From: an uncultured Candidatus Saccharibacteria bacterium
Lineage (GTDB): Bacteria; Patescibacteriota; Saccharimonadia; Saccharimonadales; Saccharimonadaceae
Length of the DNA: 38,249 nucleotides
NCBI GenBank assembly: GCA_947306585.1
Contig: CAMZGX010000005.1
Coordinates: 1-38,249 of the forward strand
Direction: 5' to 3'
Shown here: in pieces, positions 1,151-29,240 of the stretch
How the letters are laid out: each line of letters opens with the position of its first letter
How positions within the stretch are numbered: the first letter of the stretch is position 1
Program-made: the position numbers and the translations under genes
Notes under the pieces: model-generated
Seen by the model: only the letters and a program-made list of their open reading frames with translations
Database searches by the model: none
What the model was told of the DNA's origin: nothing

Positions 1151-3277
1151 TTAAAGTAAATGTATTGTGGCAAACACTGGAGCTAGTGTATTTGCAACTG
1201 TTGACATAGTCTTAATGAAAATATCGAGGGCGACGCCAACAACGTCCTTACGAGTGTCACCGATTGTATCGCCGGCAACTGCTGCTTTGTGTGCAGCTGA
1301 GCCTTTTCCGTGTCCAGCAAGGAGTCCTGCCTCGATGTATTTCTTGGCATTATCCCATGCACCACCGGAATTACCCATAAAGATAGCGCGAGGAATTGCT
1401 ACAACTGTTGCGCCGACGAGCATGCCGCCGACAAATTCAACGCCGCAGATGAATCCACCAAATACCGGAATAAATAACGCCAAGAGTGAAGGAACTAACA
1501 TTTTCTTGAGTGCCTGCTTTGCAGCCATCTCGATAATCATGTTATAGTCAGGTTTAACTTTTCCTTCGAGGACTTCCGGAGTCAACTGTTTGTCACCTGC
1601 ATCAGCAAGCAACTTCGCTGATTCAATAGTGTTATCGGTAAGCATAGCGCTGAAATACTCAACTAATGCACCACCAATGATGGCGCCAACGATTACGAGT
1701 GGGCTCGCAATATTCAGTACTGCTTCACCGGTCGAGTAACTTCCGACATATGCGAAAATCAGGGAAACGGTTGCATAGGCTGCTGAGCCAATAGCGAAGC
1801 CTTTTCCGATTGCAGCTGTAGTATTTCCAACAGCATCAAGCTTGTCGGTAATAGTACGAATTTCTTCAGGTAAGTGACAACCTTCAGCGATACCGCCTGC
1901 ATTGTCTGCGATTGGCCCAAAAGCATCAATTGAAACGGTAGTTGCTACAAATGATAACATACCAAGTGCCGCAACTGCGATTCCATAGATGCCACAAAGC
2001 CACCATGACATCAGCAGGGAAATGCCGATTACGAGGCATGGCAAGAGTACTGAACGAGAGCCAATTGCATCACCCTTAGTTACGACAAAAGCCTCGCCTT
2101 CAGTTGCGATTTCAGCTAGTGACTTAACTGGTTTATAGTCTGTGCCTGTGTAATATTCAGTTATTCTTCCGACTAAAACACCAGAAATAATTCCGAATAT
2201 TGCTGCAACCCATGGTGAAGCCCAGCCAATCTTGAATGAATCATAAAGATTAAGACTGTTGAAGAAATAACTTGCTGCGCCTGCACTTCCAAGAACTGTA
2301 ATTGCCGCCGAAATGTATGTTGCCATATTAAGTTCGAGTGACGGATTGTCTGAGTTCTTGTGGTGTAATGAATATGCAAGTCCAATGATGCATGCAAACA
2401 GTCCAATTCCAGCTAAGGCAATTGGGAACTTTAGTGTTGCAAGATAGAGATTAATGTCAGGTTCACCAGCTGCCTTGTAAACTGTTCCGGCCAGAAGCAG
2501 ACATGCGACGATAGTCGCAACAAAGCTCTCCAGAAGGTCTGAGCAGTTACCAGCAATGTCGTTTACATTATCGCCAATAAAGTCTGCAATAGTGTTTGGC
2601 ATTCTGCTGTCGTCTTCGGGTAAATCATTTCTTACCTTTCCGACAATATCTGCACTGATGTCGGCTGCCTTGGTGTAGTTACCGCCGGCAACACGGTTGA
2701 ACATCGCAACGAGCGAACAACCAAGTGAATAAGTCGTCAGTCTCATTGTAATCGGATTGCAAACCATATTTGCTAACAATCCATGTGACGTCGCATCCAG
2801 ATTGATTCCGCCTGAGGCGAAAAGGATGATTAAAAGTCCAAGAATTCCGAATGCTTCAACCGACAATCCACTTACGCTTCCTCCCTTTAAAGCAGTACGA
2901 ACTGTCCGTCCAACCTTCTTACAGCGAAAAGCACGTCTTGCTACTCTAAAATTAGCATGTGTTGCACTAATCATTCCGAGAATACAAGCCGCAGAACTCA
3001 TGCACGCACCGAGTAGGAATGTCAATCCAGAAGAAACCTCGATGAATAATGAAAATGTTACAGCAAGCGTCAGTACAACCACGATAATAATCTTATATTC
3101 CGTGATCATGAATGTTTTTGCTCCGTCTCGGATAATTTTCGAGAGATCATACATTTCCTGAATCTTTGTTTCTTCTGGTAAAATCTTCTTCGGTTTTTTA
3201 ATATTCAGATAGTTTTTCATTGCCATCGAAATGGCCCCAACAACTATTAATAAAACCAACAATAAGATTTGCTCCAT
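1151..3277 (-). CDS. hppA: Membrane-bound ion-translocating pyrophosphatase (GNTTAA motif, suggests K+-dependent type)
   Basis: 708 aa polytopic; AGGNYTKAADISADIVGKV, DNVNDIAGNCSDL, GNTTAAIGKGFAIGSAA, GDTIGD near C-terminus. Confidence 0.93.
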   Translation of the reverse strand: MEQILLLVLLIVVGAISMAMKNYLNIKKPKKILPEETKIQEMYDLSKIIRDGAKTFMITEYKIIIVVVLTLAVTFSLFIEVSSGLTFLLGACMSSAACILGMISATHANFRVARRAFRCKKVGRTVRTALKGGSVSGLSVEAFGILGLLIILFASGGINLDATSHGLLANMVCNPITMRLTTYSLGCSLVAMFNRVAGGNYTKAADISADIVGKVRNDLPEDDSRMPNTIADFIGDNVNDIAGNCSDLLESFVATIVACLLLAGTVYKAAGEPDINLYLATLKFPIALAGIGLFACIIGLAYSLHHKNSDNPSLELNMATYISAAITVLGSAGAASYFFNSLNLYDSFKIGWASPWVAAIFGIISGVLVGRITEYYTGTDYKPVKSLAEIATEGEAFVVTKGDAIGSRSVLLPCLVIGISLLMSWWLCGIYGIAVAALGMLSFVATTVSIDAFGPIADNAGGIAEGCHLPEEIRTITDKLDAVGNTTAAIGKGFAIGSAAYATVSLIFAYVGSYSTGEAVLNIASPLVIVGAIIGGALVEYFSAMLTDNTIESAKLLADAGDKQLTPEVLEGKVKPDYNMIIEMAAKQALKKMLVPSLLALFIPVFGGFICGVEFVGGMLVGATVVAIPRAIFMGNSGGAWDNAKKYIEAGLLAGHGKGSAAHKAAVAGDTIGDTRKDVVGVALDIFIKTMSTVANTLAPVFATIHLL

Positions 3278-5041: not shown

Positions 5042-6301
5042 ATGGGAAAAATTGAATATCTAGGGAAAGATTATAAAAATATAATCGGTAAACTAGGTAT
5101 TTTTGCGGGTACACTTTTAGTTACAATTTTAGCCGCATACATCTATTCGCCAATTTCTGGTAGCCACGCTACCGAAGATGAAGAAGCAAAAATTTCCGTG
5201 GGGCTCAATACTACACTATCTTTAAACATAGATGTTAATCGATTAGATTTTTCATTCCAACCGTCAGAAGACGGAACATTCTTATCTCAGCCAATTACTG
5301 CTACGGTAAGTACGAACAGCGCCGATGGCTATGAGTTATATTTCTCATCGATTGATAATGAGACAGATATGATTAATGCCTTTTACGGTGTTAATGATGT
5401 TATTTCGTCAGGCTTTAATGGCACTGTCACGAATTCTACTATGACGAAAAATACTTGGGGCTATTCACTAAATAATACTGATTTTAGTAAGATTCCAACC
5501 TTGTCTAATCAGCTAACTGTAAAAAACCTGGATCATATTCCATCAAGCGCCGAAAAAACTTCGGTTGTAAATATCGGCATCAAGGTAGCATCGGACATTG
5601 CTGCTGGATCCTATGAGAAGAGTGTAGTTTTTTCAACCATCGCACATGAATCAGTAGCAAAAATGCAAGAATTCTCTTGCTCAGATTTGCCAAATGTCGG
5701 AGATACTACGGTTCTAATGGATGTAAGAAACGGTAAAAACTATAGAGTAGGACGCTTGGCTGATAATCAATGTTGGATGTTAAATGAACTTGGTATAGGG
5801 GATGGGGCCAGAATTTCTTCCGACGATAGTGATTTGCCAGAAGGCGAAACTTTTACTGTCGGTAGTTATACAGTTAATACAGTTGGATGGTATACTTATG
5901 GTACAGCTACTGCTGGCTGGGGAAGAGTAAATGAAAACTATGCAGCTGGAGCAAACTCACCTAAATCAATCTGTCCAAAGGGGTGGAGGCTACCAACGGG
6001 TGGACCAAATAGTGACTTCTCGTGGTTGATGGAAACATATAATACCATTGATGCTCTAGAAGCTCAACCGTTTAACTTGAATATTGGAAACTCATATGCG
6101 ATGAACGGTGACAGTGGCAGTGTGCAAGATGGTGGTATCGTGGGACTTTTATCATCAACAGCGTATTCGCTTTATAATAACAATAAAAGATATTATATGT
6201 TTTATGTAACGTCATATCCTTCAAAACTTGGTGGGAGTATTACTAATAACTACACAACTTCAAGCTATGGTTACAACGTCCGTTGCATAGCTAGAAATTA
6301 A
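5042..6301 (+). CDS. Secreted paralog, subtype A, with C-terminal FISUMP-like (Fibrobacter succinogenes major paralogous) domain
   Basis: KLGIFAGTLLVTILAAYIYSP...SHA signal; NGKNYRVGRLADNQCWMLNELG, CPKGWRLPTGG, C-terminal VRCIARN. Confidence 0.75.
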   Translation: MGKIEYLGKDYKNIIGKLGIFAGTLLVTILAAYIYSPISGSHATEDEEAKISVGLNTTLSLNIDVNRLDFSFQPSEDGTFLSQPITATVSTNSADGYELYFSSIDNETDMINAFYGVNDVISSGFNGTVTNSTMTKNTWGYSLNNTDFSKIPTLSNQLTVKNLDHIPSSAEKTSVVNIGIKVASDIAAGSYEKSVVFSTIAHESVAKMQEFSCSDLPNVGDTTVLMDVRNGKNYRVGRLADNQCWMLNELGIGDGARISSDDSDLPEGETFTVGSYTVNTVGWYTYGTATAGWGRVNENYAAGANSPKSICPKGWRLPTGGPNSDFSWLMETYNTIDALEAQPFNLNIGNSYAMNGDSGSVQDGGIVGLLSSTAYSLYNNNKRYYMFYVTSYPSKLGGSITNNYTTSSYGYNVRCIARN

Positions 6302-8572: not shown

Positions 8573-9304
8573 ATGAAAAAGCCAGAATTACTATTTATCC
8601 ATGGATTTAGAGGAAACCACCTTGGTTTATTGGAGGTTAAGAAATATTTTGAGGCTAAGGGTTACAAATGTTATGCCCCAGACATTCCTCCAGCTTACAA
8701 TACTCAGAAGGAAAAGATTCCAAGACTATCTGAGCATACCGCTGATGGCTACGCTAAATGGGTTGCAGATTATATTTTAGAAAAGAAGCTTGATCACCCA
8801 ATTTTAATTGGTCACTCAATGGGCTCGATCATCAGTGCAGCTACTGCTGAAAAATACCCAGAATTAATTAACGAGAAGATTTTCTTCTTGTCGCCAATCT
8901 GCGTTACTCCACCAAAGTTTATCTGCAATCTCGCTCCGCTTTCTGTAATTTTGCCAACCAAGATGATCGGTTATATTACCACAAAGTATCTTCTTATCCC
9001 AAAAGATAAAAAGACTTTGAAAAAAGTGCTTGATATTACCTATAAGTGTGCTGAAAAATTCACATCAAAACGCGATTCTGGCCGTGCTGCTAAATTTAGC
9101 ATCAGCTACGCGATCTCAGATTTTGATTTCCAGAAAAATGCCTACTTTATTGCTGGTGAAAGTGATAAACTAAACAGCCAAGATCAGATTAAGAAAGTCG
9201 CTAAAAAGTTTAATACTAGCCCGATCTTCCTTAAAAAATCCGGACACCTTATTAACTATGAATGTCCGGAAGAGTTGGCTAAAGCGATCGATAATAATCT
9301 TTAG
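8573..9304 (+). CDS. Alpha/beta hydrolase (RBBP9/YdeN-like)
   Basis: LLFIHGFRGNHLG, ILIGHSMGSIISA nucleophile elbow GxSxG, C-terminal KSGHLINYE; ATG at 8573 preferred over track start 8561. Confidence 0.78.
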   Translation: MKKPELLFIHGFRGNHLGLLEVKKYFEAKGYKCYAPDIPPAYNTQKEKIPRLSEHTADGYAKWVADYILEKKLDHPILIGHSMGSIISAATAEKYPELINEKIFFLSPICVTPPKFICNLAPLSVILPTKMIGYITTKYLLIPKDKKTLKKVLDITYKCAEKFTSKRDSGRAAKFSISYAISDFDFQKNAYFIAGESDKLNSQDQIKKVAKKFNTSPIFLKKSGHLINYECPEELAKAIDNNL

Positions 9305-9849
9305 ATCCACTTAATCAAGCGTTTATATTCTTCGGAATCTTTATCGTATGAATCCAAGATATCTTGGGTGTAAGTTTTGCCGTTTGTAATATTGAGAGTT
9401 TCGACGTCTGGACAAGCTGCGAGCAAACGGATGATTGCTTCATCGGTATCAATGTTGGTCATTGATTTGTGTTTATCTGAAGAATGTGAATGTACGCGTA
9501 ACTCTTTATAGACAAAGCGCTTAATGCCAGCTTGTAAACAGTGTTTAAGACAGTTTTCGCAAGTTGCGATCATGTTGTAGAGAGTGCAACCATTAAGATC
9601 ACGACCAGCAAAGATTAAGGCATTCATCTCGGAATGAATTGCGAAATAATACTTCATTGGACGCTCAGAAAGTGTCATTTTTGATTCATCTGCACCTTGG
9701 ATTGTGCCATTATATCCAAATGAAACTGGACGCTTTCTTTCATCGACAATTACGCAGCCATTTTGCGAGCTAGGATCTTTGGATTTCTTTGCTACAGTCT
9801 CAGCAATCTCCATAAAATATTCATCCCACGAAAGTTTTTTGTCTGACAT
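9301..9849 (-). CDS. dCMP deaminase-like cytidine/deoxycytidylate deaminase
   Basis: HSEMNALIFAGRDLNG zinc motif plus CENCLKHCLQAGIKRFVY. Confidence 0.85.
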   Translation of the reverse strand: MSDKKLSWDEYFMEIAETVAKKSKDPSSQNGCVIVDERKRPVSFGYNGTIQGADESKMTLSERPMKYYFAIHSEMNALIFAGRDLNGCTLYNMIATCENCLKHCLQAGIKRFVYKELRVHSHSSDKHKSMTNIDTDEAIIRLLAACPDVETLNITNGKTYTQDILDSYDKDSEEYKRLIKWI

Positions 9850-9886: not shown

Positions 9887-11530
9887 GTGGAAAAATATGG
9901 TATTATGAAGTTAGACTTTTTAGCTAGTAGAATAGGATTTTTTATGAAGCCATATCAACTAGCAATTCTTATTATATTGGGTGGCGTAGGAATACTTTCA
10001 AGCTCAGCGAGCTCTTCGAGCGGCGACGACTGTTCGGATTATGAGTTTATCTTTGCACGCGGTTCTGGCCAAAGTCTGAACGATGTCGATTATATGACAC
10101 TTAAAACTGAGGTTGAGGCAGCTCTAAAAGAAGAGAATATTAGTTTCTATGAACTAGGTGAGAACGGCGGCTATCCAGCTTTCTCTCCCGGCTTTAAGGA
10201 TGTGCTTGGAACTTATTTATCTGCTGGTGAATCTTATAAATTTGGTGAATCAGTTGAAAAAGGAACTGAAGAATTATTGTCTCATTTAAAATCGGAAACA
10301 AAGAGATGTGGTAATGAAAAATATATTCTTGCCGGTTACTCTCAGGGGGCTTTTGTGATAGATAAAACTTTGCCATATTTAACTGCAGAGAAAATTATTT
10401 ATGTAGCAACCTTTGGTGATCCGAAACTTTATCTCCCAGAAGGTAAAAATCGTAATGCCTGCAAGCAGATTGGCTTGTCGAGCTACCGAGTATACGTGCC
10501 AGATTGTGAGGTTGATGAGGGGATTTTTGGCGGACTTAACCCTTATGAAAGCCAAAACTTTGACGGTAAACGTGGTGCCTGGTGTAATCAGAATGATTTT
10601 ATCTGTGGGGCAAAACTTAACATTACCGATCTCTGGAAGGGACATACAAATTATACTAGCGAAAATGGTTATCAAAAATTTGCCAGTATTATAGCTGAGA
10701 AAATATCTAATTCTAAAGAGGATTCCGAAACGACTGCCCGCTATTCGGAAGCTAAGAAACGTGACATCGTTTTGATTAACGATTATTCAAATAGCCCACT
10801 CAGTAGCTCACTCAAAAAACGCTTAGTGGAACTAGCAAATCACGGGTCGAGAATATCGGTTTATAACCTTTATTCTTTTATAAACTATTCTTTGCAATGT
10901 GTCGAAATGATACCATTCACCAATGACCATCTTGAAGAACAACTAGCCCGGATCGACTCCGCGACTTTTGCTAATATTAGTGATATTAATGACAATATTT
11001 TCTTAGGTATAAGAGACGTCGCTAGACTAGTAAAATGGGAGCCTGGTAGTGAACGGCATATCTTTGTCTATTCGAATAAGAACTATAATAATTCGCTTAG
11101 TATAGACACTATTTCTTCAAAAGATGTTCTGAAAGTCTTGAAAGAGAATAATATAAAATTATCGATACTTAGTGAATCAGGCTTAGAGAAAGATGAAAAA
11201 TATCATGACCTAGTGATAGAATCTGGCGGACAGCTAATTGGTAGCCAGTACGACAAGATTATTCTAAGTCAAAATCAGACAGAGCTAAAACCGGAATATT
11301 TTTCTAAAACATTCGAAGTTAACCAAAATTCAGAGAATTCACTCGTTATAATTAACGGCGCCCTCTATGGTATTACCAATAAAAAGAAAATCGTCATTAG
11401 AAACCTCGATAAAAACCGGATTAATGACATTCAGTTTATAGGCTATGATGAAGCCGGCAATAAGGTGGATCAAAAAACCTTCCAGGTTGGCCAGGTAAAA
11501 ACGCCAGACACCGGGAAGGCTAAGCTCTAG
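9887..11530 (+). CDS. Secreted cutinase-family esterase with C-terminal vWA-like region
   Basis: DCSDYEFIFARGSGQ; CGNEKYILAGYSQGAFVID (GxSxG); CNQNDFICG...DLWKGHTNYTSENGYQKFA (Asp/His); then DIVLINDYSNS DxSxS-like motif; start codon uncertain (9887 GTG, 9905 or 9944 ATG). Confidence 0.78.
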   Translation: MEKYGIMKLDFLASRIGFFMKPYQLAILIILGGVGILSSSASSSSGDDCSDYEFIFARGSGQSLNDVDYMTLKTEVEAALKEENISFYELGENGGYPAFSPGFKDVLGTYLSAGESYKFGESVEKGTEELLSHLKSETKRCGNEKYILAGYSQGAFVIDKTLPYLTAEKIIYVATFGDPKLYLPEGKNRNACKQIGLSSYRVYVPDCEVDEGIFGGLNPYESQNFDGKRGAWCNQNDFICGAKLNITDLWKGHTNYTSENGYQKFASIIAEKISNSKEDSETTARYSEAKKRDIVLINDYSNSPLSSSLKKRLVELANHGSRISVYNLYSFINYSLQCVEMIPFTNDHLEEQLARIDSATFANISDINDNIFLGIRDVARLVKWEPGSERHIFVYSNKNYNNSLSIDTISSKDVLKVLKENNIKLSILSESGLEKDEKYHDLVIESGGQLIGSQYDKIILSQNQTELKPEYFSKTFEVNQNSENSLVIINGALYGITNKKKIVIRNLDKNRINDIQFIGYDEAGNKVDQKTFQVGQVKTPDTGKAKL

Positions 11531-11717
11531 AAGACAAGTGCCAGTGGTCGCCGTACTCACATTTATAGACTGAAAGCTCTGGTGCGCCGTAGTCGTATTG
11601 AGCAACTTTTGCGGCTACCTCTGCTTCTTCGCGAGTATCATAACAAATCTTCTGGGTTTCTCCAACCCAGCACTTCTTCGGCTCGAAAATTCCTTGATTT
11701 TGTTGACTTCTACTCAT
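11520..11717 (-). CDS. Small conserved-looking protein with YKCEYGDHWHL motif
   Basis: 65 aa ORF MSRSQQNQGIFEPKKCWVGETQKICYDTREEAEVAAKVAQYDYGAPELSVYKCEYGDHWHLSSRA; fills the gap between genes; two Cys plus HWH. Confidence 0.6.
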   Translation of the reverse strand: MSRSQQNQGIFEPKKCWVGETQKICYDTREEAEVAAKVAQYDYGAPELSVYKCEYGDHWHLSSRA

Positions 11718-16975: not shown

Positions 16976-18463
16976 ATGAAAAAGAATAAAGCGCAAAGCT
17001 TGAATATGTTTAGTAAAGTTGGTATTTTTGCCGGTTCATTTTTAGTCACAGCTCTTGCTGTGTATTTTTATTCGCCAGTAATCAGGACTAATGCGACAAG
17101 CTCATATAATACGACAGACCAACGAGAACTGCAAGTTGGAATATTTGTGACTCCGCATATTGGAATAAGTTTAGATAAAGAGGAAGTTGATATCTCTGCT
17201 CTACCAGGTTCATTTGCGTCCGGCAATGTAAATGTTTATGTTGCGACAAACTCGTATTTGGGACATACGTTGACGATTGAGGATGCAGACGCTAACACTA
17301 GTATGATGCACGATAATCCGTCAGTTACAACTCAAATTCGTTCTAACTACGAAGGAACGAAGACTAGCTCTACTATGGAAGTTGAAAATTGGGGCTTTTC
17401 ACTAAATGCTACAGATTTTTATAGTATGCCTCCAAATGGAATATCAACCCTAATTAATAAGACTAATGCAGCCTCACCAGAAAATCCTGGCTATGATACA
17501 AAGACTGTAAGTTTTGGCGCTAAAGTTGGAATGGATACAATTTCAGGAACATATACTGACGTAGTAATCTTTACGGCATACGTAAATACGCAAGACGGAT
17601 TGTTCTATATTGAAGAAAATGGTGAAGACGTGAGGGTTCCAATTTATACCCTTGGTGGCACAACTGCTAACATGCAAAACTTTGACTGCGAGCGCGTCCC
17701 AATGGGCCAGATTGTAAACACGACCGATCTTCGCGACGGTAACGTCTATTCAGTTGGTAGGCTTGCCGATGGTAAATGTTGGATGCGTCAAAACTTGCGC
17801 TTAACAAATTATACTCTTACTCCTGAAGACTCGAATGTTGCAGAGAACTTTGTGCTTAAAGCTAGTGACATGTCTGGATTTGAATTAAGTCAAGAAGACC
17901 TAGACGCAAATGTGATGAATGATGCCGTCTATTACCTGGATGATAGTAATGGCGCATATTACTCGTGGTATGCTGCCACTGCTGGATCTATCGAAGCCTA
18001 CAATGATGAGGTCGATGGAAGTTTTATTGGGACACTCCAATATTCGGTTTGCCCAAAGGGTTGGCATATGCCGGACTATGATGATTATGAAAATTTGTTC
18101 TACATTGTCGATCCGACTCAGCTTTCAAGTGGTGGAGGTAGTGTAGTAGAAAGAAGCGGCGTAAGTTACCCTTATATATCTCTTGATTATACATTATTAA
18201 ACTTATATCTATCTGGATCCCTACGGAACGGCATATTTGATGAAGTAGGTGAAGCTGGCCTGATTTGGATGCCTGATACTTATTACTATAAAGAATCACC
18301 GTATATGCTTGAGACGTATAAGCTAAATATCGTCGGCGGCGAGGATGGTTTTGCTACACTTCAAGGTAAAGATGAAAACTATGGCGTGGGTCTTCCAGTA
18401 CGTTGTGTCACTGGCTCTACTATCAATAAATATCAGCGTGTAGAAGAGGGGGGTAGCTTTTAA
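16976..18463 (+). CDS. Secreted paralog, subtype B, with FISUMP-like C-terminal domain
   Basis: KVGIFAGSFLVTALAVYFYSPVIRTNA; TNSYLGHTLTIEDADANTSM; LRDGNVYSVGRLADGKCWMRQNLRLT; CPKGWHMP; LPVRCVTG. Confidence 0.75.
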   Translation: MKKNKAQSLNMFSKVGIFAGSFLVTALAVYFYSPVIRTNATSSYNTTDQRELQVGIFVTPHIGISLDKEEVDISALPGSFASGNVNVYVATNSYLGHTLTIEDADANTSMMHDNPSVTTQIRSNYEGTKTSSTMEVENWGFSLNATDFYSMPPNGISTLINKTNAASPENPGYDTKTVSFGAKVGMDTISGTYTDVVIFTAYVNTQDGLFYIEENGEDVRVPIYTLGGTTANMQNFDCERVPMGQIVNTTDLRDGNVYSVGRLADGKCWMRQNLRLTNYTLTPEDSNVAENFVLKASDMSGFELSQEDLDANVMNDAVYYLDDSNGAYYSWYAATAGSIEAYNDEVDGSFIGTLQYSVCPKGWHMPDYDDYENLFYIVDPTQLSSGGGSVVERSGVSYPYISLDYTLLNLYLSGSLRNGIFDEVGEAGLIWMPDTYYYKESPYMLETYKLNIVGGEDGFATLQGKDENYGVGLPVRCVTGSTINKYQRVEEGGSF

Positions 18464-21743: not shown

Positions 21744-23216
21744 ATGGGGAAAATTCTTAGAAAAAGTTGCCATGTTGATAGTGTAATGAGAAAACTTGGC
21801 ATTTTTGCGGGTTCGTTTATGATCACAGCTTTTGCTGTGTATTTTTATTCTCCGGTTTTTAAAACTCATGCCGAAGATGATGGTCCGGTCACTGTTACAA
21901 CTGATGTTTTACCTTATGCTGGTGTAACCTTGAGTACTTATGATATAACAATGAATCTTACGCCAACTGCTGAAGGTAATTTCGAATCTGACTCAGTTAT
22001 AGCCACTGCTTCGACGAACAGTTCTGGTGGTTTTGAAATGTATTTTTCATCAGAAGATAACTATACCGACATGAAAAATACCGACCTGTCTATCAACGAT
22101 GTAATAGCTTCAGATTTTGATAGTACGGTCACAAGTGCAACGATGGCAGCTAATAAATGGGGGTACTCAACTGATGGTACTAATTTCTCAAAAATTCCAA
22201 CCTCGGCAAATCATGCCATATTAAAAAACATCGATCATTTTCCATCTACAGCAGAAAAAACCGCAACGGTTTATCTTGGCGCAAAAGTTGATATGAGTAT
22301 TGCTCCAGGTGCATATAAGAAGACGGTTATGTTTACGGTAATTGCGCACGAAATGCAAGATATGCGTACAATCTTTGATATCGCAAAGATGCAGGAAATG
22401 ACGCCAAAAATTTGTTCTAATACGCAAAAGCCAAATAAATCTGCAACTAACTTTGATTGGGATGGCTCAAAAAATGGGAATGAAAGTTATGTCCCACGAA
22501 CCGTTCTTGAAGATGAACGCGATGGGACTCGCTACTTAATTTCAAAGCTAGCTGATGGCAACTGCTGGATGTCACAAAACCTAAGCTTGATTCTTTATGC
22601 AAACGAACCAGTAATAACATCAACTAATACTGGTGGGACCAGTACATTTACACCGACAAACACAACGCAAACAGGCTCTGGCACTAGGTGGCCGAATTCT
22701 GAAAATATTGCTAGGAGCTACGAGCAAACTGGCAACTATGCTTATTATCGCGGCGGTAGAACACAAAATGCAAGCCCAACCGAAAATAGTAATGCATATC
22801 TTTGGGAGTCAGCTGGAGTTTCTTATAACTGGTATGCTGCAACTGGTGGTACTGGCATTACTACTTTAACAACAGGCGAAGCATCTGCTTCTATATGTCC
22901 TAAAGGCTGGAGGCTTCCGGCCTCTGGTAATACGAAATCATTCACTGGATTATTAGCTGCTTATGCAAGCGGTAGTAGTAATACACCAGCTGCTGCGTCA
23001 ATGATTACAGCTCCGCTAAACTTTACCCGAGCTGGATATTATCGTAACAATAGCACGCAAAGTCCATCTAGTCGTGGCACCTCAGGGCGTTACTGGACTT
23101 CATATACAACACAGGCCTCGAATGCCTCCTACATGTCATTCTCATCTACTGCAGTCAATTCGGTTCAATCAGGCTACCGAGGCCTCGGTCATAATATTCG
23201 CTGTGTTGCTATCTAG
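21744..23216 (+). CDS. Secreted paralog, subtype A, with FISUMP-like C-terminal domain
   Basis: KLGIFAGSFMITAFAVYFYSPVFKTHA; TNSSGGFEMYFSSEDNYTDM; DERDGTRYLISKLADGNCWMSQNLSL; CPKGWRLPASG; NIRCVAI. Confidence 0.78.
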   Translation: MGKILRKSCHVDSVMRKLGIFAGSFMITAFAVYFYSPVFKTHAEDDGPVTVTTDVLPYAGVTLSTYDITMNLTPTAEGNFESDSVIATASTNSSGGFEMYFSSEDNYTDMKNTDLSINDVIASDFDSTVTSATMAANKWGYSTDGTNFSKIPTSANHAILKNIDHFPSTAEKTATVYLGAKVDMSIAPGAYKKTVMFTVIAHEMQDMRTIFDIAKMQEMTPKICSNTQKPNKSATNFDWDGSKNGNESYVPRTVLEDERDGTRYLISKLADGNCWMSQNLSLILYANEPVITSTNTGGTSTFTPTNTTQTGSGTRWPNSENIARSYEQTGNYAYYRGGRTQNASPTENSNAYLWESAGVSYNWYAATGGTGITTLTTGEASASICPKGWRLPASGNTKSFTGLLAAYASGSSNTPAAASMITAPLNFTRAGYYRNNSTQSPSSRGTSGRYWTSYTTQASNASYMSFSSTAVNSVQSGYRGLGHNIRCVAI

Positions 23217-23289: not shown

Positions 23290-24609
23290 ATGGGTAAAAC
23301 ACAAACACATGGGTATCAAGAAAAAATCAACCAGCTCGGTATTTTTGTGGGTGCATTTTTAGTTGCAGTCCTTGCTGTGTATTTTTATTCGCCGGTTATA
23401 AAGTCGCATGCAGACAGCCATGCTTCAGAAAGTCTGGATGTAAATCTTAACGTTGCTCCGGCAATAGCTATTCATGTTGACAAAAGTGAATTGAATCTTG
23501 ATGCTAATTTTCATAATCAATTTGTCCAAGGTCCAGTAAATGTAGATGTTACTACAAACTCGGTATATGGGTTTAGCCTTGGCCTTGAAGATATGGATTC
23601 TGATACAAATCTAGTGCACGAATCTGCTAACGTAGATGATGTTTTGACTTCAAATTTTCTAGGCTCAAAAACTGGTGACGATATGGATGGTAATACTTGG
23701 GGATTTTCGCTTGATGGCACTAACTTTTACAGAATGAATCCGAATGGCAAACCGATTCGTCTTAAAACTACTAATAGCCCAACCCCAGCAGACCCTGGTT
23801 ATGATCGTACCCAAGTTGACTTTGGCGCTAAAATTGACATGTATTTGACCGCTGGTGTTTATGCGGACACTGTAATCTTTACTGCTTATGTTAATGGTGT
23901 AGACGGCAACCCATCCGATGGTACAGTGCTTCATGCAAAAGGCGAGTCTCTATATCGAGCTATGCAGAACTTCGATTGTAGCACAATCAACAATGGTGAT
24001 ACTGAAACGCTCGTAGATCTTCGAGATGGCCAAGAGTATAACATTATAAGAGTTGGGAGCACTTGTTGGATGAAAGAAAACCTTAACCTGAAGGGTCCAG
24101 CTCAACTAACCCCAACTCTGTCTAATGTATCAGATTGGGATTTAGAACCAGAAGAAGAAGGCGGAGAGCCAGCTGAGTATGTACAACTTCCAGCAAGCTC
24201 ACTTCAAGGCTTCATTGATCCAATTCCACATAAAACGGATTGGCAGTACAAAATAGCGCCTGCATATTATGATAACGGAACATATGGTGGACTATATAAT
24301 CGTACGGCTTCCGATATCGTCTGTCCAAGAGGCTGGACGCTACCATCCTTATTTAATAGTACTCCAAATGAGGAAGAGGACGTAGACCTAACTGAATTAG
24401 CGTCCACCTTCTCAAAGGGTGGATATATCGATGATGGCGTATTAACCAGTGTCGGGACGGAAGGATTTTACTGGTATTGGGAAAAAGACGAAAGACGTTA
24501 TTGGCAATCTTATGGCTTTGATACTACCCCTTCCGTTAAGTACAATATAGATAATATCGATGGCATGGCGGTCAGATGCATAATTGATGTGTCTGGCTCA
24601 GATGCATAA
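23290..24609 (+). CDS. Secreted paralog, subtype B, with FISUMP-like C-terminal domain
   Basis: QLGIFVGAFLVAVLAVYFYSPVIKSHA; TNSVYGFSLGLEDMDSDTNL; DLRDGQEYNIIRVGSTCWMKENLNL; CPRGWTLPS; AVRCIID. Confidence 0.75.
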   Translation: MGKTQTHGYQEKINQLGIFVGAFLVAVLAVYFYSPVIKSHADSHASESLDVNLNVAPAIAIHVDKSELNLDANFHNQFVQGPVNVDVTTNSVYGFSLGLEDMDSDTNLVHESANVDDVLTSNFLGSKTGDDMDGNTWGFSLDGTNFYRMNPNGKPIRLKTTNSPTPADPGYDRTQVDFGAKIDMYLTAGVYADTVIFTAYVNGVDGNPSDGTVLHAKGESLYRAMQNFDCSTINNGDTETLVDLRDGQEYNIIRVGSTCWMKENLNLKGPAQLTPTLSNVSDWDLEPEEEGGEPAEYVQLPASSLQGFIDPIPHKTDWQYKIAPAYYDNGTYGGLYNRTASDIVCPRGWTLPSLFNSTPNEEEDVDLTELASTFSKGGYIDDGVLTSVGTEGFYWYWEKDERRYWQSYGFDTTPSVKYNIDNIDGMAVRCIIDVSGSDA

Positions 24610-27060: not shown

Positions 27061-28071
27061 ATGCTAGGAGTGGGCTATAATAAAGATAAAATCTTGAAAA
27101 AAATCCGTGCGGCAAACTATCTAACGGTTGCCCAGCTTTTCTTGCGCCAAAATTTCTTGCTTGAAAAAGAACTTGAATTTGATGATATAAAACCGAGACT
27201 ACTCGGACACTGGGGAACTTGTCCAGGTATTAACCTTGCTTACAATTGTCTAAAAACTTATGACGAAAATATTGATGTAGTAATTGGACCAGGACATGGT
27301 TTTCCAGCACTCCAGGCAAACTTATTTATTGACGGTGAACTTGAAGCTGTTGATAGTAAAGCTACGCGTGATGAAAATGGTATCGCCTATGTTTGCAAGA
27401 ATTTTTCATGGCCAGGCGGATACCCATCGCATGCTTCGCCAATGACGCCACACGTAATTTGCGAGGGTGGCGAACTTGGTTACGCACTCGCAACGAGTTA
27501 TGGTTTTTGTTTGGGCAATCCAGAAAAAACCGTTGCATGCTTGATTGGCGATGGTGAATTCGAAACTGCTACCGCACTTGCATCAATGAATTTAAATAAG
27601 TTATTTAGCGGCACCAGAAATGGTAATGTCTTACCAATTTTGCACCTTAATGGCTATAAAATTTCTGCACCAACTATTGCTGGTCGCAAATCCGATCGTG
27701 AAATTTCAGAACTCATTCGTGGTTTCGGTTTTACGCCACTTTTTGTTCGTGCTACAAATGAAGATGCTGAACTTGCATTGAATTATGCAGTAGACGATTT
27801 TAAAAATGCTTTAGATGAAGCTTACTCTATCTTCCGTAGTATCAAACACGGTGAAAAAATGAATCCACCATTTATTATTATGAAAACTGACAAAGGCTTA
27901 ACTGGTCCAGAAGAGCTTGATGGCTTAAAAATTCGTGGCAACTTCAAAGCCCACCAAATCCCGCTATTAAATGCTAAAACCGATGAAAAAGAATTAAAAG
28001 TATTGAATACTTGGATGAAATCATATCGCTTTAATGAGCTATTCGACAAAGAAAAAGGATTTACACTATGA
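27061..28071 (+). CDS. Phosphoketolase, N-terminal (TPP-binding) half encoded as a separate ORF
   Basis: LGHWGTCPGINLAYNCL; GPGHGFPALQANLF; WPGGYPSHASPMTPHVICEGGELGYALATSYG; GDGEFETAT; LPILHLNGYKISAPTIAGR; GPEELDGLKIRGNFKAHQIPL. Confidence 0.85.
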   Translation: MLGVGYNKDKILKKIRAANYLTVAQLFLRQNFLLEKELEFDDIKPRLLGHWGTCPGINLAYNCLKTYDENIDVVIGPGHGFPALQANLFIDGELEAVDSKATRDENGIAYVCKNFSWPGGYPSHASPMTPHVICEGGELGYALATSYGFCLGNPEKTVACLIGDGEFETATALASMNLNKLFSGTRNGNVLPILHLNGYKISAPTIAGRKSDREISELIRGFGFTPLFVRATNEDAELALNYAVDDFKNALDEAYSIFRSIKHGEKMNPPFIIMKTDKGLTGPEELDGLKIRGNFKAHQIPLLNAKTDEKELKVLNTWMKSYRFNELFDKEKGFTL

Positions 28072-29240
28072 CGAAAAAATCTTCTGCAAAAACTCTTGGT
28101 GAACTCATTAAAAACGAAATGAGAATTAACGAAAAATTCTACTTATTTTCACCGGATGAAACTACTAGCAATAAGCTTGATGCTGTCTACGAAACTGAAT
28201 CTCGCGCGTGGTCTAACCTTGATATAAAATCATGGGATATGAAAGAAAAAGATGGCGGTCGAATTGTTGAGCTGCTTTCTGAGAACACACTTTTCGCATG
28301 TATGCTTGGTGCAATTTTAGCTAAAAATAAAGCCATGATGACGAGCTATGAAAGTTTCTTTAGTATTATTACAAGCCAAATTATTCAGCATTTAAAGTTT
28401 CTTGAACAAAGCGAAAAAGTTTCATGGCGCGAAAAATATCCAGCTGTAAATCTGCTCAGTACTTCAACTTGTTGGCGCCAGGACCACAATGGTTTCTCGC
28501 ACCAATCACCAGTTCTAATTAGCACTTTGCTTGATCGTCCAGGAAAAAATGTAAACTGCTTTTTCCCAGTTGACTCTGAATCGATGAAAGCGGTTTTTGA
28601 TTACATGGTTCATTCCGAAAATGTAGTAAACCTTGTGACTTTTAATAAGACTGACGAACCGCAATATATTGACGGTGATCACGCCTATTATCAATTCGAT
28701 TTTGGTGCAAGTATTTTTGGTTTCGCTTCGGATGGCGATACATTCTATCTCGAATCGGATCAAAACCATTTTGATTTCATCTTTACTGCCGCTGGTGATA
28801 TTGCAACTCGCGAATCACTTGAAGCGATGAAAATTGTGCGCAGCGATATGCCGGAATTAAAACTTCGTTTTATTAATATTCTTTCGCTTACACATGAAAA
28901 AATCGGCACCTGTAGCCGCGTAATGAGCCAAGAAACTTTTGATAAACTCTACATCAAAGGCACACCAATCATTTCAAACTTCCATGGCTATAAAGACACT
29001 TTGAAACATATTTTGAAAAACTACACCAATGCCGAAATTTTCGCACACGGATTTGAAGAGCAAGGTTCAACTACCACTCCACTCGAAATGTTGACCTTAA
29101 ATCATGCATCACGTTTTGATCTCGCACTCGACGTCGCACGAAAAATGAATCGTACTGACTTAGTTGAGAAATACGAAAATCTTATTTTGCAGAACCGCGA
29201 GCACGCCCACGCGCTTGGCGTTGACCTTTTTGAGGTTTAA
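28068..29240 (+). CDS. Phosphoketolase, C-terminal half encoded as a separate ORF (ATGA overlap)
   Basis: FSPDETTSNKLDAVYE; GRIVELLSENTLFACMLGAILAKNKAMMTSYESF; CWRQDHNGFSHQSPVLISTLL. Confidence 0.85.
   Translation: MTKKSSAKTLGELIKNEMRINEKFYLFSPDETTSNKLDAVYETESRAWSNLDIKSWDMKEKDGGRIVELLSENTLFACMLGAILAKNKAMMTSYESFFSIITSQIIQHLKFLEQSEKVSWREKYPAVNLLSTSTCWRQDHNGFSHQSPVLISTLLDRPGKNVNCFFPVDSESMKAVFDYMVHSENVVNLVTFNKTDEPQYIDGDHAYYQFDFGASIFGFASDGDTFYLESDQNHFDFIFTAAGDIATRESLEAMKIVRSDMPELKLRFINILSLTHEKIGTCSRVMSQETFDKLYIKGTPIISNFHGYKDTLKHILKNYTNAEIFAHGFEEQGSTTTPLEMLTLNHASRFDLALDVARKMNRTDLVEKYENLILQNREHAHALGVDLFEV

Follow-up and report, generated by a model that had tools for sequence, protein, structure and literature searches.

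Saccharibacteria are ultra-small parasitic bacteria, and to our knowledge Patescibacteria lack lipid synthesis. The locus described here raises the question of what such an organism would do with an exported esterase carrying a vWA domain. Here we report that a single open frame of 547 codons, at 9887-11530 (+) of the window (the whole 38,249-nucleotide stretch of DNA that was analysed), almost certainly encodes a secreted esterase of the cutinase family that also carries a vWA domain, and we consider which function best fits its structure, conservation and distribution.

Although the frame opens at the GTG at 9887, the true start is probably the ATG at 9944 (MKPYQLAILII...; probable coding region 9944..11530, +), which we prefer because it yields a clean signal peptide, MKPYQLAILIILGGVGILSSSAS, and because the relatives point the same way. 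Sequence inspection places the probable Sec signal peptide at residues 20-42 (9944..10012, +), and the leaders of relatives are likewise hydrophobic, often ending in AxA directly ahead of a conserved Cys. In an AlphaFold2 model of the whole protein, built on 37 sequences, the cutinase domain is predicted with confidence and is followed by a Rossmann domain resembling vWA and, towards the C-terminus, by a small beta domain (residues 478-535; 11318..11491, +; pLDDT ~75-95). The last of these has no family match and corresponds to the small beta-rich tail that had been proposed from the letters alone.

The cutinase domain spans residues 49-264 (10031..10678, +). Its match to Pfam Cutinase (PF01083) scores 65.7 bits, where the cut-off is 25.9 (E=6.4e-18), far beyond chance; pLDDT exceeds 90 across most of it, and the predicted structure is the cutinase alpha/beta-hydrolase fold, with Fusarium cutinase 1oxm as the best PDB match of the whole protein in Foldseek (TM 0.75 on target). 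The expected catalytic triad aligns throughout: over 102 aligned members, scored wherever the position was readable, Ser152 in GYSQG (10340..10342, +) is invariant in 99 of 99 non-gap rows, Asp237 in the loop C233-x3-D-x2-C240 (10595..10597, +) in 100 of 100, and His253 (10643..10645, +) in 101 of 101. All of the cutinase cysteines are present, together with an additional pair, Cys192/Cys207, and the cysteines are invariant in about 100 members. The claim of the sequence-only reading that the N-terminal half is a cutinase is thereby borne out. Among family-level relatives of genus code g11, three cutinase homologues (L042, L046 and L056) contain one or two in-frame TGA codons and may be pseudogenes, errors or cases of recoding.

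The same reading had called the enzyme actinobacterial in type, as though recently received from Actinobacteria. Our comparisons do not favor this. In a tree of cutinase domains, a starred branch (98) unites the mycobacterial, Nocardia and Pseudonocardia enzymes and sets them apart from most Saccharibacterial ones, so that the window protein and the mycobacterial Culps fall on separate starred branches. The stretch from the GDP strand to the catalytic Asp loop is 59-65 residues long in the Saccharibacterial relatives vs 25-31 in the other bacterial cutinases compared (mycobacterial and Pseudonocardia-type). In the window protein, this length comparison with Culps marks out residues 180-232 (10424..10582, +) as an insert that holds the extra conserved Cys192/Cys207. 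Judged on sequence, the protein is a member of a distinct cutinase subfamily, spread across the order, with an insert larger by about 30 residues ahead of the catalytic Asp. A recent import from Mycobacteriaceae finds no support in either the tree or the insert length.

The only actinobacterial members of the subfamily that we found, in Arthrobacter sp. AFG7.2 and Rothia aeria, fall among Saccharibacteria in the tree and have the insert, with the same span of 59-65 residues. The Arthrobacter copy is also a cutinase-vWA protein, with a DSTGSM MIDAS, while that of R. aeria has a PKD/beta tail; both differ from the window protein in being sporadic, in lacking its P[ND]TG end, and in that their compared ORFs are without the N-terminal cutinase part. 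Cutinases above the cut-off occur in 4 of 198 Micrococcaceae genomes, and AU tests on the direction of exchange with Micrococcaceae gave p values of 0.31 and 0.45. Given these values and the separate subfamily, a transfer from Actinobacteria is not shown for the window's genus.

With the wider PF01083/CE5 family (Fusarium cutinase, Trichoderma cutinase 4psc and acetylxylan esterase) the window protein shares the fold, the triad, the C-x3-D-x2-C loop and two conserved disulfide positions; it differs in the Cys pair of its enlarged insert, the C-terminal vWA and the beta domain. Mycobacterial Culps such as Rv3802c and Rv3452 are likewise bacterial cutinase-family esterases that are secreted or located in the cell wall, but they are 22-34% identical over the cutinase part, have the shorter insert, form a separate clade and carry no vWA in the copies compared. 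Among solved sequences, the profile matches fungal cutinases and acetylxylan esterases most closely and mycobacterial and phage LysB relatives less well (LysB distantly, 3hc7, 5.6e-4), and the earlier suggestion of mycolate or TDM as substrate gains no support from this. Identity with the LysB mycolyl-arabinogalactan esterase was rejected, since LysB is not the closest similarity and a phage context is absent. Phage cargo was likewise set aside: we found no match among 50,697 phage records and one weak partial match in viral contigs, and the locus is chromosomal and syntenic.

The second half of the protein had also been read as vWA-like, and structure prediction agrees. AlphaFold2 gives a Rossmann vWA fold (residues 290-450; 10754..11236, +), also when the C-terminal half is modelled alone, and Foldseek matches of that half are led by integrin beta I-like domains (E~1e-8), inter-alpha-inhibitor heavy chain and TFIIH-subunit vWA folds. 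A profile search of this half against solved sequences returned no match, whereas the fold search did. In Pfam, 13 of the 17 members of one alignment of relatives match VWA_4, and some match VWA_2 or VWA; the window's own second half has no Pfam vWA match, and we attribute this to the divergence of this copy. As for the predicted metal site, the DxSxS motif is present as D299-Y-S301-N-S303 (10781..10795, +), aligned with DSTGS of relatives, and D366 is retained; the loop-3 Asp, part of an LTD in most relatives, is Asn397, so that the MIDAS of the window protein is only partly intact. The site (DxSxS, a loop-2 T/D and the loop-3 Asp) is complete in most relatives, Ca. Nanosyncoccus alces among them, and decayed in the window copy and its nearest relative (G027). 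Because the triad is invariant while the MIDAS decays in some members, selection appears to guard catalysis more than metal binding. A role of the vWA domain as an adhesin is plausible, with a MIDAS that is partly degenerate in the window.

Matches among genome contigs come mostly from Saccharibacteria of ruminant guts, including Ca. Nanosyncoccus alces, in line with the source suspected at the outset. As Ca. Nanosyncoccus alces (G771) and a member of the window's genus (G001) give identical match coordinates and score, the window organism appears to be a Saccharibacterium from a ruminant gut and to share its genus with Ca. Nanosyncoccus alces. We found the cutinase in 93 of 99 genomes of this genus, mostly 0.5-1.2 Mb in size. 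Wider samples, all of which take in the window's genus, gave 38 carriers among 151 genomes for the family, 44 among 246 for the order and 11 among 382 for the phylum; only three of the 11 carriers in the phylum sample fall beyond the order, and a single one of these three exceeds the cut-off. The gene is nearly universal in the genus, patchy across the order and almost absent in the rest of the phylum, and most other sampled Saccharibacteria are without a cutinase-vWA protein.

The locus is mostly syntenic, running from a uracil-DNA glycosylase through a divergent dCMP deaminase, the cutinase-vWA gene and a convergent small ORF to TypA or NrdD. The dCMP/cytidine deaminase (9301..9849, -; identified by Pfam) accompanies the gene in 32 of the 51 loci that were compared and is a syntenic marker with no part in the mechanism. 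The small conserved ORF (65 aa; 11520..11717, -), which overlaps the cutinase stop and is a neighbor in many loci of the genus, ends in YKCEYGDHWHLSSRA and has no Pfam family. Carriage by 93 of 99 congeners with small genomes, mostly at one syntenic place, rules out contamination or a chance passenger. Between the window and G027, identity is 58% over the cutinase domain and 35% over the vWA and C-terminus, as against 89% for the deaminase and 79% for the next hydrolase; genus-wide, median identity is 55% for both domains vs 76-77% for two neighboring genes. Such divergence, faster than that of its neighbors, is as expected of a surface-interacting protein, and the conservation and identity data together describe a protein that is kept, catalytically constrained and fast-changing.

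Elsewhere in the window, two overlapping ORFs (27061-28071 and 28068-29240, +; XFP_N, then XFP and XFP_C) together encode a split phosphoketolase; the identical split in congeners G027 and G378 makes this look like a conserved two-gene form, not a sequencing error. Of four proteins matching Fib_succ_major (FISUMP), at 5042-6301, 16976-18463, 21744-23216 and 23290-24609, one exceeds the Pfam cut-off and the others fall slightly short of it, and the many FISUMP paralogues in G027 suggest an expanded surface-protein family. A membrane H+-pyrophosphatase is encoded at 1151-3277 (-) in this reduced-genome epibiont.

The window protein ends in KTPDTGKAKL (11498..11527, +; TPDTG at residues 539-543), a sortase-like P-[ND]-T-G motif with no transmembrane anchor. 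Among genus members, 67 of 73 end in P-[N/D]-[T/S/A]-G (P-x-[TSAC]-G), with the stop 2-9 residues past the motif, mostly 2, and those residues often basic; a hydrophobic C-terminal end occurs in only two of the 73. The membrane segment and long charged tail that follow the motif in LPxTG sortase substrates are absent from the window protein, although the [AT]P[ND]TG end of its genus resembles the PxTG proteins with a transmembrane segment in the same genomes and sortases are present, two to three per genome in the six genomes checked. Readthrough or a frameshift into a hidden membrane tail was rejected, as no frame at the stop encodes a hydrophobic tail in the window or in ten relatives. In a survey of two congeners, G027 and G378, for comparable motifs, the cutinase-vWA protein was the only one of 786 ORFs of G378 to end in P[ND]TG without a membrane helix; in about four surface proteins of that genome, such a helix does follow a comparable motif. 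The DNA pattern for PKxP[ND][TS]G was present in 15 of 30 genomes, mostly within the cutinase gene; relatives outside the genus are without the motif, and 8 of 29 end in a transmembrane helix. According to an excerpt of one study, a synthetic peptide containing LPETG can be incorporated into a cell wall by a route that depends on sortase A (PMC3929722), which suggests that a motif without an anchor might in principle serve; its use here is speculation. We think it highly improbable that the motif is a real sortase tag on a released lipid esterase, by which a sortase, possibly the host's, would link the enzyme covalently to the surface of host or epibiont. If true, a parasite would be planting an enzyme on the wall of its host.

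A function in lipid supply is suggested by what the cell itself seems to lack: ketoacyl synthase was found in 0 of 12 genomes and in 14 of 14 controls. Mycobacterial Culps act as phospholipase A or lipase, reportedly without cutinase activity (PMC10865251), and a Saccharibacterium causes lipid droplets to form in its host (PMC10939385). We propose that the Sec-type leader would export the protein, that the vWA domain (metal-dependent in most relatives, partly degenerate in the window) and the C-terminal parts would dock it on a partner cell or surface, and that the docked cutinase domain would then cleave acyl esters, with phospholipids or glycerolipids in the envelope of the host bacterium as the likeliest substrates. 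The fatty acids or lysolipids set free would nourish the epibiont, itself without a fatty-acid synthase. We put the probability of this full mechanism, a secreted and docked acyl-ester hydrolase of phospholipase or lipase type that feeds its producer, at roughly 0.4; leader, fold and triad come from sequence and prediction, and substrate, target and benefit are what we infer. Counting against lipid feeding, polyester hydrolases and acetylxylan esterases belong to the cutinase family too, the nearest solved sequences are fungal, we recognised no gene for lipid uptake next to the cutinase-vWA gene, and most other Saccharibacteria in our samples do without the protein. A PlsC-type acyltransferase could use the product of the esterase; its retention in 6 of the 12 genomes is counted for the mechanism, and its detection in no more than these 6 against it.

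Other functions must be weighed on the same evidence. The fungal cutinases and acetylxylan esterases that are the nearest solved sequences and folds, and genus records taken for the most part from the gut of sheep, goat, cattle, deer, yak and buffalo, would suit an esterase for plant or dietary esters in the ruminant gut (cutin, acetylated xylan, chloroplast galactolipids), with the vWA binding plant or mucus surfaces. We regard this as unlikely, since genomes of about 0.7 Mb would hardly belong to polymer degraders, homologues occur elsewhere in the order beyond this genus, and the Culps, as noted, reportedly do not act on cutin. Hydrolysis might instead weaken the host envelope in the manner of phage LysB, not to feed but to breach or compete, as a resemblance to PHROG endolysin and PE-PPE in the region of the catalytic Ser could suggest. 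The distant LysB match and the near-absence from phage and viral records speak against this function, and we know of no reason to expect mycolates in common gut Actinobacteria. Even with the extensive host death that an excerpt of one report describes early in an epibiont infection (PMC10768705), we consider an envelope-breaching enzyme improbable.

The remaining alternatives concern where the protein acts and which part of it matters. Were it mainly an adhesin, with the vWA and C-terminus important and the esterase secondary, the vWA fold and a MIDAS intact in most members would be accounted for; that the triad is retained in all members, including two relatives without an obvious vWA (L114 and L118), while the MIDAS decays in some, the window and G027 among them, makes this quite improbable. 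We give equally little credence to self-envelope maintenance, in which the enzyme would trim the acyl chains carried by lipids on the epibiont's own surface: the non-genus relatives with a terminal transmembrane helix would indeed keep it on the producing cell, but members of the genus lack that anchor, and fast divergence suggests an outside partner.

We return to the secreted, docked hydrolase that would feed the epibiont. Its modules are individually known; in the open-licence literature we found no prior description of their combination, of its near-universality in a genus of reduced-genome epibionts, of the distinct insert or of a sortase-like end without an anchor. A recent perspective states that no mechanism of lipid uptake or breakdown has been identified so far in Patescibacteria (PMC11665869). 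The near-universal secreted cutinase-vWA protein of this one genus, catalytically intact by its sequence, is a concrete candidate for the means by which bacteria unable to make fatty acids may acquire them from their surroundings or their host.
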